64,000 nt of DNA from assembly GCA_947169265.1 (NCBI GenBank), contig CAMVPC010000002.1, positions 1 to 64,000 of the forward strand, written 5' to 3'. The stretch comes from an uncultured Prevotellaceae bacterium. Its GTDB lineage: Bacteria; Bacteroidota; Bacteroidia; Bacteroidales; Muribaculaceae. The notes beneath the pieces are model-generated. The model worked only from the letters and a program-made list of their open reading frames with translations. It had not been told where the DNA came from and ran no database searches. Shown piece after piece: positions 25,500-39,238 of the stretch. The translations under genes were made by a program, and so were the position numbers. How positions within the stretch are numbered: position 1 is the stretch's first letter; the number at the start of each line of letters is the position of its first letter.

Positions 25500-25698
25500 A
25501 TGAAACACGAAGTTTTTCATTTTTATTGCCGAGATGCCGCCTACCTTAGGCCGCCAGGCCAACGATAGTGCAAATCGAGAGCAATACAAAATGAAACACG
25601 AAGTTTTTCATTTTTATTGCCGAGATGCCGCCTACCTTAGGCCGCCAGGCCAACGATAGTGCAAATCGAGAGCAATACAAAATGAAACACGAAGTTTT
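25475..25698. repeat. 91-bp direct tandem repeat, about 2.5 copies
   Basis: Identical units at 25475-25565 and 25566-25656, then a 42-base partial copy from 25657. Each begins TAGTGCAAATCGAGAGC and contains CCGCCTACCTTAGGCCGCC. It is contiguous, without spacers, so it is not CRISPR. Confidence 0.95.
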
Positions 25699-25701
25699 GG
25701 G

Positions 25702-26112
25702 TCACCCGCAAAACCCTGTGTTTGTCAAACAAGTATTAGCCCCGCCAGGGGCGACATTTTTTAGGCAGGGGTGTAGCGCGACAGCGCGAAACCCCTGTAT
25801 CCATCGCATTACGTTTCGTGTAGCCCCGATAGGGGCGACACAAGCGACATCGGTCCCAAATTGTGTCGCCCCGAATGGGGCTAATATTTGGTGGGGTGCC
25901 TATCACAGGGGTTCCGCGCTGTCGCGCTACACCCCTGCCTACAATCTGTCGCCCCTATCGGGGCTTATCAGCCACGACAACACGACGGTTCGCCGCGCTG
26001 TCGCGCTGCACCCCTGCCTACTATCTGCCGCCCCTGGCGGGGCTACTTAGAGGCGATGATTACAAAATTCCGGTCACCCGCAAAACGAACACAGGGTTTT
26101 GCAGGTGATAGG
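25702..26112. repeat. REP-like palindrome array
   Basis: Five copies of a 14-base palindrome GCCCCGNNNGGGGC or its inverse (25739, 25823, 25868, 25951, 26030) alternate with two or three longer hairpins having CAGGGGT/ACCCCTG arms and GCGCGACAGCGC-like centres (25766-25797, 25906-25937, half copy near 25995-26018). The array is bounded by CACCCGCAAAAC/GTTTTGCGGGTG sequences, which also occur at about 37867-37888. Copies change orientation in the middle. No gene is supported inside. Confidence 0.85.
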
Positions 26113-26233
26113 AAGTTTTTCATTTTTAATACCTCAAATGTTTAGTCAGACAATGAAGACAACGAAGACAATGAAAACAATGAAATTTTCGGCGGTATTT
26201 TACTTAAAGTGGTAAGGATTTTTCGCTGTCTCG

Positions 26234-35720: not shown

Positions 35721-36821
35721 ATGGCACTACAATGCGGTATTGTGGGTCTCCCTAATGTGGGTAAATCGACCCTTTTTAATTGTCTTTCAAACGCTAAGGC
35801 CCAGTCGGCCAATTTCCCTTTTTGCACCATCGAGCCTAACGTGGGCGTTATCACCGTGCCCGACGAGCGCCTTAACAAGCTCGCCGAGCTTGTGCACCCG
35901 GCGCGTGTCGTCCCCACCACAGTCGAGATTGTCGATATTGCCGGCCTGGTGAAGGGAGCCAGCCGTGGCGAGGGCTTAGGCAATAAATTCCTGGCTAACA
36001 TCCGCGAGACCGATGCCATCATCCATGTGCTGCGCTGCTTCGACGACGACAATATCACCCATGTGGACGGCACTGTCGACCCGGTGCGCGACAAGGAGGT
36101 GATTGACACTGAGCTGCAGTTGCGCGACCTTGAGACTATCGAGAGCCGGATAGGGCGCGTGCAAAAGCAGGCAGCCGCCGGCGACCGCGAGGCGAAAGCC
36201 GCCGCCGAGGTCTACGGCCGTTACCGCGATGCGCTCGCCCAGGGCAAGAGCGCACGCTCGGTGGAATTGCTCAACAAGGAGGAAGAGAAGATAGCCCACG
36301 ATTTGTTCCTGCTCACTAACAAGCCGGTACTCTATGTGTGTAACGTGGACGATGCCAGCGCCGCCACCGGCAACGAATATGTGGAGGCCGTGCGCGAAGC
36401 CGTCAAGGATGAGCATGCCGAAATCCTCGTCGTGGCCGCGCAAACCGAGAGCGAAATCGCCGAACTCGAAACGGCCGAGGAGCGAGAGATGTTCCTCGCC
36501 GAGATAGGACTCGAGGAGAGCGGCGTGAACCGCCTCATCAAGGCCGCTTACCGCTTGCTCAACCTGGAGACCTTCCTCACCGCCGGACCTAAGGAAGTGC
36601 GCGCTTGGACCTATCGCAAGGGCAGCAAGGCGCCGCAGTGTGCCGGTGTGATTCACAGCGACTTCGAGCGCGGCTTCATCCGTGCCGAGATTATCAAGTA
36701 TGACGACTACATCCACTATGGCAGCGAGGCGGCCGTCAAGGAAGCGGGCAAGATGCACACCGAAGGGAAGGACTACGTGTTCCAAGACGGCGACATCGTG
36801 GTATTCCGCTTTAATGTGTGA
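35721..36821 (+). CDS. ychF: YchF/OLA1-family ribosome-associated ATPase
   Basis: A 366-residue Obg-like P-loop NTPase. The G1 motif GLPNVGKST is at 9-17, DIAGLVKGA (G3) near 72 and the altered NKPVLYVCNVD in the G4 region. A coiled-coil insert (about 130-200) and a C-terminal TGS domain (about 280-366, ending FQDGDIVVFRFNV) complete the family pattern. It binds ribosomes and prefers ATP in characterised homologues. The start MALQCGIVGLPNV is the family N-terminus. It is followed by a hairpin at 36867-36892. Confidence 0.95.
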   Translation: MALQCGIVGLPNVGKSTLFNCLSNAKAQSANFPFCTIEPNVGVITVPDERLNKLAELVHPARVVPTTVEIVDIAGLVKGASRGEGLGNKFLANIRETDAIIHVLRCFDDDNITHVDGTVDPVRDKEVIDTELQLRDLETIESRIGRVQKQAAAGDREAKAAAEVYGRYRDALAQGKSARSVELLNKEEEKIAHDLFLLTNKPVLYVCNVDDASAATGNEYVEAVREAVKDEHAEILVVAAQTESEIAELETAEEREMFLAEIGLEESGVNRLIKAAYRLLNLETFLTAGPKEVRAWTYRKGSKAPQCAGVIHSDFERGFIRAEIIKYDDYIHYGSEAAVKEAGKMHTEGKDYVFQDGDIVVFRFNV

Positions 36822-36892: not shown

Positions 36893-36983
36893 TGTGGTGC
36901 GAAATGGGAAAAATGTCGGCGTATTCATGTCGGTTCCTAAAAAGAAGGGCGACATTTTCTCATGACCGATATAGTGGTCATAT

Positions 36984-37143
36984 TTTTGGGACACACGCAA
37001 ATCATTGTGTCTTGATAGGACGCTAGTACCTCAGGCACACATCGCCGAAAGGCGATGGCCAGCGTGAAAACCCCACCATGACAGGAGCGTAGCGACTGAA
37101 TGGTGGGGGTATAGGGGACGTGTAAGGTCGTTCCTCGTGAGAG
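36984..37143 (+). repeat. Left inverted arm of the IS200-like element
   Basis: Starts TTTTGGGACACACGCAAATC and includes two hairpins; complementary to the right arm at 37660-37821. Confidence 0.85.
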
Positions 37144-37150
37144 AAATACT

Positions 37151-37182
37151 TTTGCTGATGTCGGCACCTTCTCGTAATTTTG
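37151..37182 (+). promoter_or_regulatory. Transposase promoter abutting the start codon
   Basis: TTTG (37151-37154) and TAATTTTG (37175-37182), 20 bases between. The ATG at 37187 is 4 bases after the box, implying leaderless mRNA. The promoter is inside the left part of the element, outside the hairpin arm. Confidence 0.75.
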
Positions 37183-37186
37183 CGGC

Positions 37187-37624
37187 ATGAGTCTCGCCGC
37201 ATTATACTTTCACCTTGTCGTCCGCACCAAGAACGGCAGTATGACTATCCCCGAAGCCGATAAAGGCGACTTGTATGCCTACATGGCCGGAATCATCTCT
37301 AACAGGGGGTGTGAGGCATTGATTATCAATGGCACGCCAAATCACATCCATCTGCTCATCAAGGTCACTCCGTCGACAAAGTTTGCCGACCTTGTCCATG
37401 ACCTGAAACTCGGCGCCACACATTATATCAAGACCCATCGCGCGCGTTTCGCCGATTTTGAGGGGTGGGGCAAGGAGTATGCGGTATTCAGTTGCTCGGC
37501 GGCCGACCGTACGCGCATCATCAGTTACATAAAGAATCAGCGGGAGCACCATCGCACGCTCAGCGCCGAAGACGAGCTGCGTCGGTTCTGCGATATGGCG
37601 CACATTGACTATTACGAGTCATAG
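37187..37624 (+). CDS. tnpA: IS200/IS605-type (Y1) single-strand transposase
   Basis: A 145-residue HUH-type transposase. The metal-binding HUH motif is in NHIHLLI (about 52-58) and the catalytic tyrosine is probably in YIKNQREHH (about 114). The N-terminus SLAALYFHLVVRTKNG and the EYAVFSCS strand match the family. It should nick and join single-stranded DNA by a 5'-phosphotyrosine intermediate, recognising hairpins at the element ends. The gene appears intact. No tnpB or IscB-like partner follows. Confidence 0.92.
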   Translation: MSLAALYFHLVVRTKNGSMTIPEADKGDLYAYMAGIISNRGCEALIINGTPNHIHLLIKVTPSTKFADLVHDLKLGATHYIKTHRARFADFEGWGKEYAVFSCSAADRTRIISYIKNQREHHRTLSAEDELRRFCDMAHIDYYES

Positions 37625-37659
37625 CGGCTCGGCGAATGGCCCGCGCTATGCCGGTGTTC

Positions 37660-37821
37660 CTCTCACGAGGAACGCTTTCGTGTGCTGTTCCTTCTCCCCA
37701 CCATTCAGTCGCTACGCTCCTGTCATGGTGGGGTTTTCACGCTGGTCATCGCCCAAAGGCGATGTGTGCTTGAGGGCATTCTCGTCCTATCAAGACGCGA
37801 TGATTTGCGTGTGTCCCAAAA
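37660..37821 (-). repeat. Right inverted arm of the IS200-like element
   Basis: Mirror of the left arm, ending GATTTGCGTGTGTCCCAAAA. The inner end CTCTCACGAGGAACG pairs with 37129-37143. Confidence 0.85.
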
Positions 37822-37866: not shown

Positions 37867-37888
37867 AAACACAGGGTTTTGCGGGTGA
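37867..37888 (+). repeat. Dispersed GTTTTGCGGGTGA repeat
   Basis: AACACAGGGTTTTGCGGGTGA, also seen (inverted or nearly identical) bounding the REP-like array at 25702-25722 and 26088-26110. It lies 46 bases beyond the IS200-like element, so an unrelated repeat family shares this locus. Confidence 0.75.
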
Positions 37889-37889
37889 G

Positions 37890-38075
37890 TCATATTTTTT
37901 TTAGGCTTTCTCCCTTGAGCGTGGTGACCTCTATTAGCGCGTTGTCTTCGCCATGTTCCACGTCGCTCTTTTTGCCTTCGCTCAGCACCTTGTAGTAGTA
38001 ATCGCCTTTTTCGTCGATACTGTCTTTGGGATGATTTGTTTTTTGCAGATGCTCGTCTCGATGGCTGGCTGTCAA
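37890..38075 (-). CDS. Possible small protein after the alcohol dehydrogenase gene
   Basis: A 61-codon frame with the charged sequence KGDYYYKVLSEGKKSD near its middle and no membrane segment. Its only available start is TTG, overlapping the dehydrogenase stop (TTGA); an in-frame TAA lies just upstream. Codon use is less GC-rich than its neighbours. It could be a translationally coupled protein or a decayed gene end next to the mobile element. I do not recognise it. Confidence 0.3.
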   Translation of the reverse strand: MTASHRDEHLQKTNHPKDSIDEKGDYYYKVLSEGKKSDVEHGEDNALIEVTTLKGESLKKI

Positions 38076-39238
38076 TCGTTATTGACAGTCTCGCGGCGAT
38101 AAGCAAGGCGGTACAGCTCCTGGATGGCCGCCGCGGTATATTCCTTGGGGGCATGGCTGGGGCTGCCGCTCTTGATGGCGTCGTGGGTCATCTTCTCGAT
38201 GGCGTCCATGTATTCGGCCTCGTCGATGCCGTAGTCTTTGAGCGACGGCACGTTGAGTTTGTCGACAAGGCTGTCGACCTCGGCCACAAATTTCTCGCTC
38301 GCGTCGATTTCGTCGACAGCCTGCAGGCGCAGGTAAGTGGCGATGCGCGCGAAGTTGTGGCGCGCGGCCTGCTCCATGTCGCTAAGGCACGTGCGCAGCA
38401 GCATCGCGTTCGACAGCCCGTGGGGCACGTGGAACAGCGCGCCGATGGGGCGGCTCATGCCGTGCACCAGCGTCACGCTACTGTTGTTGATGCACAAGCC
38501 GGCCTGCGTGGCGGCGATAGCCATCTCGCGGCGGGCGTCGCGGTCGGCGCCATCGCGGTAAGCCTTGGGCAGGTAGCGCATGATGCGCTTGATGGCCGAT
38601 AGGGCCAGCGCGTCGCTCAGCGGTTGCGCCTTGACGCTGATAAAAGCCTCGATGGCGTGGGTGAGCGCGTCGAGACCGGTGGCCGCGGTAATCGACGGCG
38701 GGCACCCGTTGCTAAAGGAGTAGTCAATCATGGCCACCCGCGGCAGCAGGCTCTCGCCCAGCAACAGCATCTTGTCGCCGTTGTGCTCATCGGTGATGAT
38801 GGTGTATTTTGTCACTTCGCTGCCGGTGCCGCTCGTGGTGGGAATACACACCACCGGGGGCAGGTCGGCCTCGATGGCGATGCCGCGATAGTCGCTGATG
38901 GCACCGGGTAGCACGGCCATGGCCGCGATGGCCTTCGCCGCGTCGAGGGGGCTGCCACCACCCAGCCCGATGAGGAAGTCACAGTTATTGTCTTTATATA
39001 TCCGCGCGCCGTGGGTAATCATTCCCACGGTGGGTTCGCCCAGGATGTCGTCGAGCACGGTGTAGCGCACGCGGTCGTTGTCGAGGGTGCGCTCAAGGGT
39101 GGCCACCATGGTGCTCTTGCCCACGTGAGGGCCGGTGACGATGAGCGCGTGCTTGCCCAGTTTTGGGAACACTCCCACAGCGTTGGCGACGATATTGTCG
39201 CCCATCAGTATTTTTTCGGGGGTAGTGAATTGAAACAT
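38072..39238 (-). CDS. Iron-containing alcohol dehydrogenase
   Basis: A 388-residue group III (iron-activated) dehydrogenase acting on alcohols or aldehydes with NAD(P)H. The nucleotide-binding GGGSPLDAAKAIA is near 93-105, and PTTSGTGSEVT near 134. Metal ligands are expected in GLDALTHAIEAF (D and H, near 190-200) and in HGMSRPIGALFHVPHG (histidines near 253-268). The substrate (1,3-propanediol, butanol, lactaldehyde or other) cannot be decided. It has its own promoter and diverges from nothing nearby. Confidence 0.9.
   Translation of the reverse strand: MFQFTTPEKILMGDNIVANAVGVFPKLGKHALIVTGPHVGKSTMVATLERTLDNDRVRYTVLDDILGEPTVGMITHGARIYKDNNCDFLIGLGGGSPLDAAKAIAAMAVLPGAISDYRGIAIEADLPPVVCIPTTSGTGSEVTKYTIITDEHNGDKMLLLGESLLPRVAMIDYSFSNGCPPSITAATGLDALTHAIEAFISVKAQPLSDALALSAIKRIMRYLPKAYRDGADRDARREMAIAATQAGLCINNSSVTLVHGMSRPIGALFHVPHGLSNAMLLRTCLSDMEQAARHNFARIATYLRLQAVDEIDASEKFVAEVDSLVDKLNVPSLKDYGIDEAEYMDAIEKMTHDAIKSGSPSHAPKEYTAAAIQELYRLAYRRETVNND

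Follow-up and report, generated by a model that had tools for sequence, protein, structure and literature searches.

Organization of the locus

A gene for an IS200-like transposase that lies between two inverted palindromic arms raises the question of whether enzyme and arms constitute a unit resembling a REPtron, and by which activity such a unit and its parts would spread. We have investigated this question for a locus in a stretch of 64,000 nucleotides from an uncultured member of the Bacteroidales, referred to as the window, which encompasses bases 1-64000 of contig C2 in a genome (G000) of 2.9 Mb in 74 contigs. The gene tnpA (37187..37624, plus strand) is located between two genes whose names reflect our reading of the list of open frames, ychF, which ends at 36821, and an alcohol-dehydrogenase-like gene on the minus strand (38072-39238).

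Around tnpA, three colinear blocks recur in inverted orientation, pairing 36984-37022 with 37783-37821 (39 nt, 95%), 37029-37108 with 37696-37775 (80 nt, 93%) and 37129-37149 with 37654-37674 (21 nt, 90%). When aligned over their entire length, the arms match in 143 of 171 columns and have an inverted-repeat score of 198, whereas none of 50 dinucleotide shuffles scored above 25. The left arm (37029..37149, plus strand) contains a hairpin at 37040-37057 with a C-GAAA-G loop and a second one at 37071-37108 (CCCCACCAT...ATGGTGGGG, with an inner GC-GTA-GC), followed by a degenerate third block (37129-37149). The right arm (37654..37775, minus strand) carries inverted copies of these elements with hairpins at 37654-37674, 37696-37733 and 37747-37764. 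Treated as single-stranded DNA, the arms fold with z-scores between -4.3 and -5.7, which is equalled by 0 of 200 shuffles. The inverted arms of the original prediction are thus confirmed, whereas the number of hairpins, two for each arm in that prediction, is three for the right arm and, counting firm ones, two for the left.

Arms and tnpA are in turn enclosed by an outer shell. On its left side, a terminal repeat (GGGACACACGCAAAT..., 36988..37010, plus strand), comparable to the motif GGGWCACCCGCAAAA, is preceded by the octamer ATATTTTT (36980..36987). On its right side, the terminal repeat is found twice. The inner copy (37783..37821, minus strand, with a 15-mer at 37803-37817), which closes the right arm on its outer side, is flanked by 8-mers that are mismatched at 3 of 8 positions, and a degenerate outer copy (37877..37891, minus strand, reverse complement GACTCACCCGCAAAA) is directly followed by an exact second ATATTTTT (37892..37899). 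The right edge of the element, previously placed at 37821, is thus probably found at 37891. The duplicated octamer is A/T-rich and of low complexity. A second shell in the window with the same type of ends (GGGTCACCCGCAAAA..., 25699..26111) is devoid of tnpA and contains two inverted arms of another kind. It is surrounded by an exact 8-bp duplication GAAGTTTT (25691-25698 and 26112-26119). At both shells, a control with displaced 8-mers gave no match.

The ychF loci of 29 relatives, inspected with about 1500 nt of flanking sequence, contain no tnpA match and provide no clean empty site for the window unit. The dehydrogenase gene is in reach in only one of them (G027, YchF 97%), where it is about 40 nt distant from ychF compared to 1250 nt in the window. 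This comparison is one of presence versus absence with no base-exact join, and both an insertion in the lineage of the window and a deletion in G027 are possible.

Features of the transposase

As originally predicted, the transposase is intact, with a frame that is open for 145 amino acids and a product that matches the Pfam family Y1_Tnp with an E-value of 7.7e-19. Within this domain, the protein combines a HUH motif of the sequence NHIH (H53-I-H55) with a single catalytic tyrosine (Y114), which identifies it as a Y1/HUH enzyme. The tyrosine is part of a motif YIKNQREHH that also contains Q118, H121 and H122. The named histidine, tyrosine and glutamine residues are invariant among 13 aligned sequences, and the H-x-H and the tyrosine are aligned in PDB matches, which are transposases of the IS200/IS605 kind including ISHp608. 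The score for the NCBIfam IS200 model (47.5 bits) is below its cut-off of 55, and tnpB was recognised by eye in none of the listed open frames of the window.

The available part of Quentin et al. (2018; PMC6006769) describes a subclass 1.2 with proteins of about 148 residues, which is characterized by the signature Y-x-x-x-Q-x-x-HH and a HUH motif DH[IV]H, and which occurs at low copy number in Bacteroidetes and Cyanobacteria, without REPs, generally without ends of the IS200 type and as a group that "does not share IS properties". The window TnpA resembles this subclass in its signature, its approximate length, its presence in Bacteroidetes and its low genomic copy number, but it departs from it in its NHIH motif and in its association with hairpin arms, shell ends and target duplications. 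Since the Y motif fits and the HUH motif differs from the DH[IV]H of the published table, we refer to the protein, by its signature, as putatively subclass 1.2-like, and either the published description of the subclass is incomplete or the protein belongs to a neighbouring group. DHIH and DHVH are found in some TnpA relatives from other families.

Matches to TnpA at an E-value of 1e-10 or better were detected in 102 of 150 searched genomes, with one to seven copies per genome that are mostly divergent and include near-identical pairs. The genome of the window contains a second tnpA (L014, G000:C8:31514-31933), which is 43% identical and accompanied by its own, different palindrome. The palindrome region of its left arm has 25 additional matches, among them its own right arm, and several of these copies form regular direct clusters (C7, C32). 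A third relative (L015, G000:C32:23560-23826) with 33% identity and a DHLH motif is apparently truncated at its 5' end.

Conservation of the arms and their divergence with TnpA

The same-genus relatives are metagenome-assembled genomes labelled as Muribaculaceae, Bacteroidales, Prevotellaceae or Porphyromonadaceae, many of them from the ruminant gut. The inverted-repeat score exceeds that of every shuffle at 30 of 31 oriented tnpA loci, with L023 as the failure and L035 reaching only 22 nt. In a set of 72 named loci, which remained after 8 of 80 had been left out for too little flank and which mostly originates from the same genomes as the 31, inverted arms were found beside 68, whereas ychF genes had them in 1 of 28 cases and random windows in 2 of 137; at 8 of the 72, direct repeats score above inverted ones. 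A further set of 39 tnpA loci contained 37 that could be tested, with 31 passing, and in twenty more loci the inverted-repeat score is at least 40 in 15, a count obtained without shuffle control and with many loci shared with the 72. Within the set of 39, other families of the order contribute 8 passing loci out of 13, one of them narrowly (L223, 34 vs 33). Flanking direct repeats score higher than inverted ones at five loci from these families (L214, L215, L217, L220 and L222).

By eye, the arms of the 31 loci group into three kinds, termed a (the kind of the window), b and c, each with its own TnpA group, and more kinds were seen in the set of 39. Across 65 loci, arm similarity correlates with TnpA identity (rho 0.68-0.71), compared to a maximum of 0.23 in the null distribution, but only 21 of the 65 left arms find their best match in the right arm of the same locus. 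Two genomes, G000 and G005, each hold two kinds of TnpA with different arms, which in G000 are kind a in the window and kind c at C8:31514. Since two kinds with separate arms can coexist in a single genome, the parallel divergence of arms and TnpA does not result from host descent alone. The transposase itself is under purifying selection, as evident from a median pN of 0.058 vs a median pS of 0.762 in 36 kind-b pairs and a dN/dS of 0.04 for the tnpA pair L018/L019.

Hairpin stems and loops

Co-variation of the stems was demonstrated for one arm kind. In kind b, which provided 62 distinct 36-nt cores, 96.5% of 372 cells are paired, double changes are found at all six pairs, and the covariation score of 0.835 compares to 0.235 in shuffled and at most 0.169 in slid alignments. 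The stems of the left and the right arm of the same locus often differ, with each being self-complementary, which argues that the hairpin of each arm is maintained in its own right and not only the pairing between arms. The loops carry an additional asymmetry. Read on the strand leading from the outside towards tnpA, 64 of 85 triloops in the arms are GNA and none is TNC, compared to 10 GNA and 16 TNC among 143 triloops in control flanks. GNA loops form very stable DNA minihairpins, and their restriction to one strand marks this strand as the one that folds. An excess of G.T over A.C in stem cells (15 vs 4) equally marks one folding strand and is compatible with either RNA or single-stranded DNA, and the placement of inverted arms around the gene would fit a role as DNA better than as RNA. 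Rfam searches gave no match at gathering thresholds, and visual inspection of the stem bases at the 31 oriented loci revealed no REP foot GT[AG]G.

Arm copies at sites without tnpA

The original prediction had proposed that the arms might be substrate and also spread as short elements, and a search of the own genome and its relatives located solo kind-a arms at two places in the former. Among 101 same-genus genomes, the kind-a pattern is present in 15 with 56 places in total, the kind-b pattern in 67 with up to 74 places in a single genome, and the kind-c pattern in 6 with 17 places in G000, counts that all include the arms at tnpA; reversed patterns, used as control, gave zero matches for each kind. 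The kind-a pattern is present in 6/6 genomes with a kind-a tnpA and in 8/85 without (p 4.5e-6), and the association persists if arms at tnpA sites are excluded (5/6 vs 8/85, p 1.5e-4). Of eight inspected arm pairs devoid of tnpA, five are inverted and begin 143-147 nt from each other, two are spaced more widely and one has the opposite arrangement. The ten solo copies of G005 were assigned by eye to the right-arm type in nine cases and to the left-arm type in one, with two carrying a piece of tnpA. Solo arms, whose absence had been named as an argument against the proposal, do exist, and arm similarity follows TnpA identity, so that neither this objection nor that of an unrelated flanking duplication shared with the arms applies.

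Several of these sites have features of their own. One solo arm in G000 (L006, G000:C21:62113-62611), located near a contig end beside about three tandem copies of ~90 nt, showed no pair of shell ends in a scan with looser end definition. The genome G088 contains ten near-identical elements of 205 nt (L162-L172) that end in GGGTGTGTCATAATTC and carry one kind-b arm each. No target duplication was detected in these ten elements, whose left flank mostly ends with CG and whose right flank mostly begins with TC. The same genome harbours a MITE-like family of seven copies (L173-L179) ending in TTCAAGTTTCTAAAGTAG, also with one kind-b arm, whose A/T-rich flanks contain a suggestive 7-bp duplication.

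Shell ends and target duplications

The ends of the shell around arms and tnpA conform to the sequence GGNWCAsC. With up to one mismatch, the terminal motif was found at 37 places in G000, 43 in G005 and 3 in G027, compared to 2, 0 and 1 for the respective reversed patterns. Inverted pairs of the motif enclose either an empty palindrome of 37-41 nt, arm sequence in elements of 134-476 nt, or arms and tnpA in units of 822-942 nt. The minimal palindromic shell was matched in only 3 of 101 genomes.

Exact 8-bp duplications surround six distinct tnpA units (the window unit, L277, L281, L286, L295 and L296) and three shells without tnpA (L342, L343 and the one at 25699 in the window). Among 14 elements with paired ends, 5 have an 8-bp duplication with at most one mismatch where 0.15 are expected. 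A scan with a looser definition of the ends, whose nearest-pair rule replaced the units L295 and L347 by inner end copies, gave 3 among 26 elements where 0.16 are expected. Of seven tnpA rows with GGNWCAsC at both ends, six show an exact 8-bp duplication, which corresponds to 5/6 distinct loci as two rows describe the same one. When 102 tnpA loci, some of them duplicated, were scanned with no end motif presupposed, six rows showed an exact 8-mer and similar ends, compared to an expectation of 0.00; five of these have GGNWCAsC ends (four distinct loci) and one is of low complexity. Mobility of entire units is illustrated by L277 and L281, which reside in the same genome, share 99.3% identity over precisely the extent of the shell (826 and 828 nt) and are bordered by duplications that differ from each other. 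The closest homologue of the window unit, in G005, has perfect shell ends and no duplication.

The shell ends are alike across TnpA kinds, whereas the arms change with TnpA, and the same end type accompanies different kinds of arms. Conversely, kind-b arms reside in the two other shell types of G088, one without duplication and one with the suggestive 7 bp. The arms of the second window shell (AGCCCCG... and GGCAGGGGTG...CCCCTG, 25691-26119 with the duplication) resemble those flanking the tnpA genes of L228-L230 and L248.

Bacterial MITEs of DDE-type insertion sequences are short elements with terminal inverted repeats and a target duplication that lack a DDE gene of their own. The shells without tnpA look like MITEs, with terminal inverted repeats and a duplication of fixed length (8 bp), and many elements with such ends have no duplication; different from MITEs, some units carry an intact Y1 transposase gene and hairpin arms. 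As many of the tnpA-less copies are shrunken shells of this type, the spread of arms need not be the work of TnpA. The assignment as a REPtron-like locus of the IS200 clade in Bacteroidales in the original prediction largely holds but had missed the outer shell and its 8-bp duplications.

A candidate enzyme for movement of the shell was sought in two DDE families. Partners of the families PF12762 (IS1595) and PF00872 (IS256) were found in 0 of 4 and 0 of 9 genomes, respectively, and 10 open frames located in the vicinity of single shell ends, several of these frames probably non-coding, revealed no transposase in Pfam searches. In seven units with ends and duplication, from 1.14 Mb of sequence biased towards tnpA loci, the longest open frame spans 116-163 residues, and tnpA is thus the only gene seen in them.

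A proposed two-layer unit and its alternatives

Our preferred interpretation, to which we assign a probability of about one half, is that of a unit with two layers, in which TnpA and its cognate hairpin arms would reside inside a shell moved by a separate, probably DDE-type enzyme. In its REPtron-like core, a Y1/HUH TnpA resembling subclass 1.2 would act on the two inverted arms as its substrate, and may do so by binding the GNA-loop strand of an arm in single-stranded form, for example on the lagging-strand template. The shell with its GGNWCAsC ends would be inserted through a staggered reaction on both strands, with duplication of 8 bp of a mostly A+T-rich target, most likely catalyzed in trans by a DDE-type transposase, and units that lose tnpA would persist as MITE-like shells with one arm, two arms or a palindrome of 37-41 nt. 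Two layers are favoured because neither terminal inverted repeats nor larger target duplications are a feature of known IS200/IS605 elements according to the accessible text of PMC2817692, because the shell ends stay similar while the arms change with TnpA, and because kind-b arms are also found in the two other shell types of G088. The interpretation is weakened by the negative outcome for PF12762 and PF00872, by tnpA as the sole gene seen in units with ends and duplication, by the many elements with such ends that show no duplication, among them the homologue in G005, by the A/T-rich octamer and the degenerate right end of the window unit, by the left arms that match another arm better than their own partner, and by the loci at which direct repeats score higher.

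These same observations render it doubtful that TnpA itself moves the whole unit, in which case a Y1 HUH element bounded by terminal inverted repeats would generate 8-bp duplications by an undescribed route, since shell ends have been retained despite the divergence of arms and TnpA, and the same kind of arm resides in shells that differ in their ends and in their duplication behaviour. As no DDE enzyme was found in our limited searches, movement by TnpA still has to be considered, and it would account for the fact that tnpA is the only gene in units with ends and duplication, for the exact end-to-end transposition of L277 and L281, and for the presence of arm sequence, as judged by eye, in all seven inspected tnpA-less shells above 100 nt, two of which had been chosen for their arms. 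It would also be in line with Y1 genes flanked by terminal inverted repeats with the motif GGGGWSAS, to which GGGWCAC fits, in the available part of PMC3733652. In its full form, with TnpA as sole mover that employs both the inverted GGNWCAsC ends and the hairpin arms with their strand signature and leaves target duplications of 8 bp, we consider this mechanism unlikely.

We find it similarly improbable that TnpA and its arms are domesticated passengers of a MITE shell with a non-mobile task, such as the processing of hairpins at replication forks, whose arms spread only as cargo. Purifying selection on TnpA, the few and mostly divergent copies per genome, notwithstanding the near-identical pairs, and the location of several solo arms inside shells would agree with such a role, but arms and TnpA diverge together as expected for substrate and enzyme, and the solo arm L006 has no pair of shell ends.

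Finally, an ordinary IS200/IS605 insertion sequence, to which the Pfam and PDB matches would point, or an artefact of chance or duplication is highly improbable in light of the NCBIfam score below cut-off, the inverted-repeat ends with target duplications, the recurrence of the arms in relatives with negative ychF and random-window controls, the covariation of the stems and the copies that are 99.3% identical over the extent of the shell.

Relation to known systems and implications

With respect to known systems, the HUH/Y1 core and hairpins near the ends are shared with IS200/IS605 elements such as IS608 and ISDra2, which differ in the absence of terminal inverted repeats and of larger target duplications (PMC2817692, accessible text). 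Like the REPtrons of RAYTs, as portrayed in the same text (Nunvar et al., 2010), the locus contains a Y1 gene between inverted palindromes that recur dispersed in the genome, and inverted arm pairs without a gene resemble REPINs. In contrast to REPtrons, the enzyme is of a Y...Q and not of the class 2 (Y...NP) type, and the arms are about 100-170 nt long, contain several hairpins and are surrounded by an outer shell with target duplication. The nearest precedent, as far as the available part of De Nocera et al. (2013; PMC3733652) extends, are TIRtrons, in which a Y1 gene (TIRYT) is placed between long terminal inverted repeats, some self-complementary and repeated in the genome, with a motif GGGGWSAS that is similar to the GGNWCAsC ends in a comparison of the motif alone. 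The terms 'duplicat' and 'target site' are absent from that available text, and the 26 TIRYTs belong to subclasses 2.1, 2.2 and 2.5 in the accessible part of PMC6006769, different from the enzyme described here. A MITE of Porphyromonas gingivalis has ends of the IS5 type in the visible part of PMC4596501 and is, to this extent, unrelated. Searches of an open-access library listed no paper in which subclass 1.2 is credited with REP-like arms or with target duplications.

The arms thus provide a probable substrate for a group of transposases that was published as having none and whose relatives are common in Bacteroidales, and their co-varying, strand-marked hairpins make the specificity between enzyme and substrate directly testable. 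The 8-bp duplications at units in which a Y1 gene is the only one seen imply either that REP-type systems ride in DDE-type MITEs or that HUH enzymes do something undescribed. If TnpA were the sole mover, HUH enzymes would have an undescribed mode of transposition, which TIRtrons in other phyla may share.
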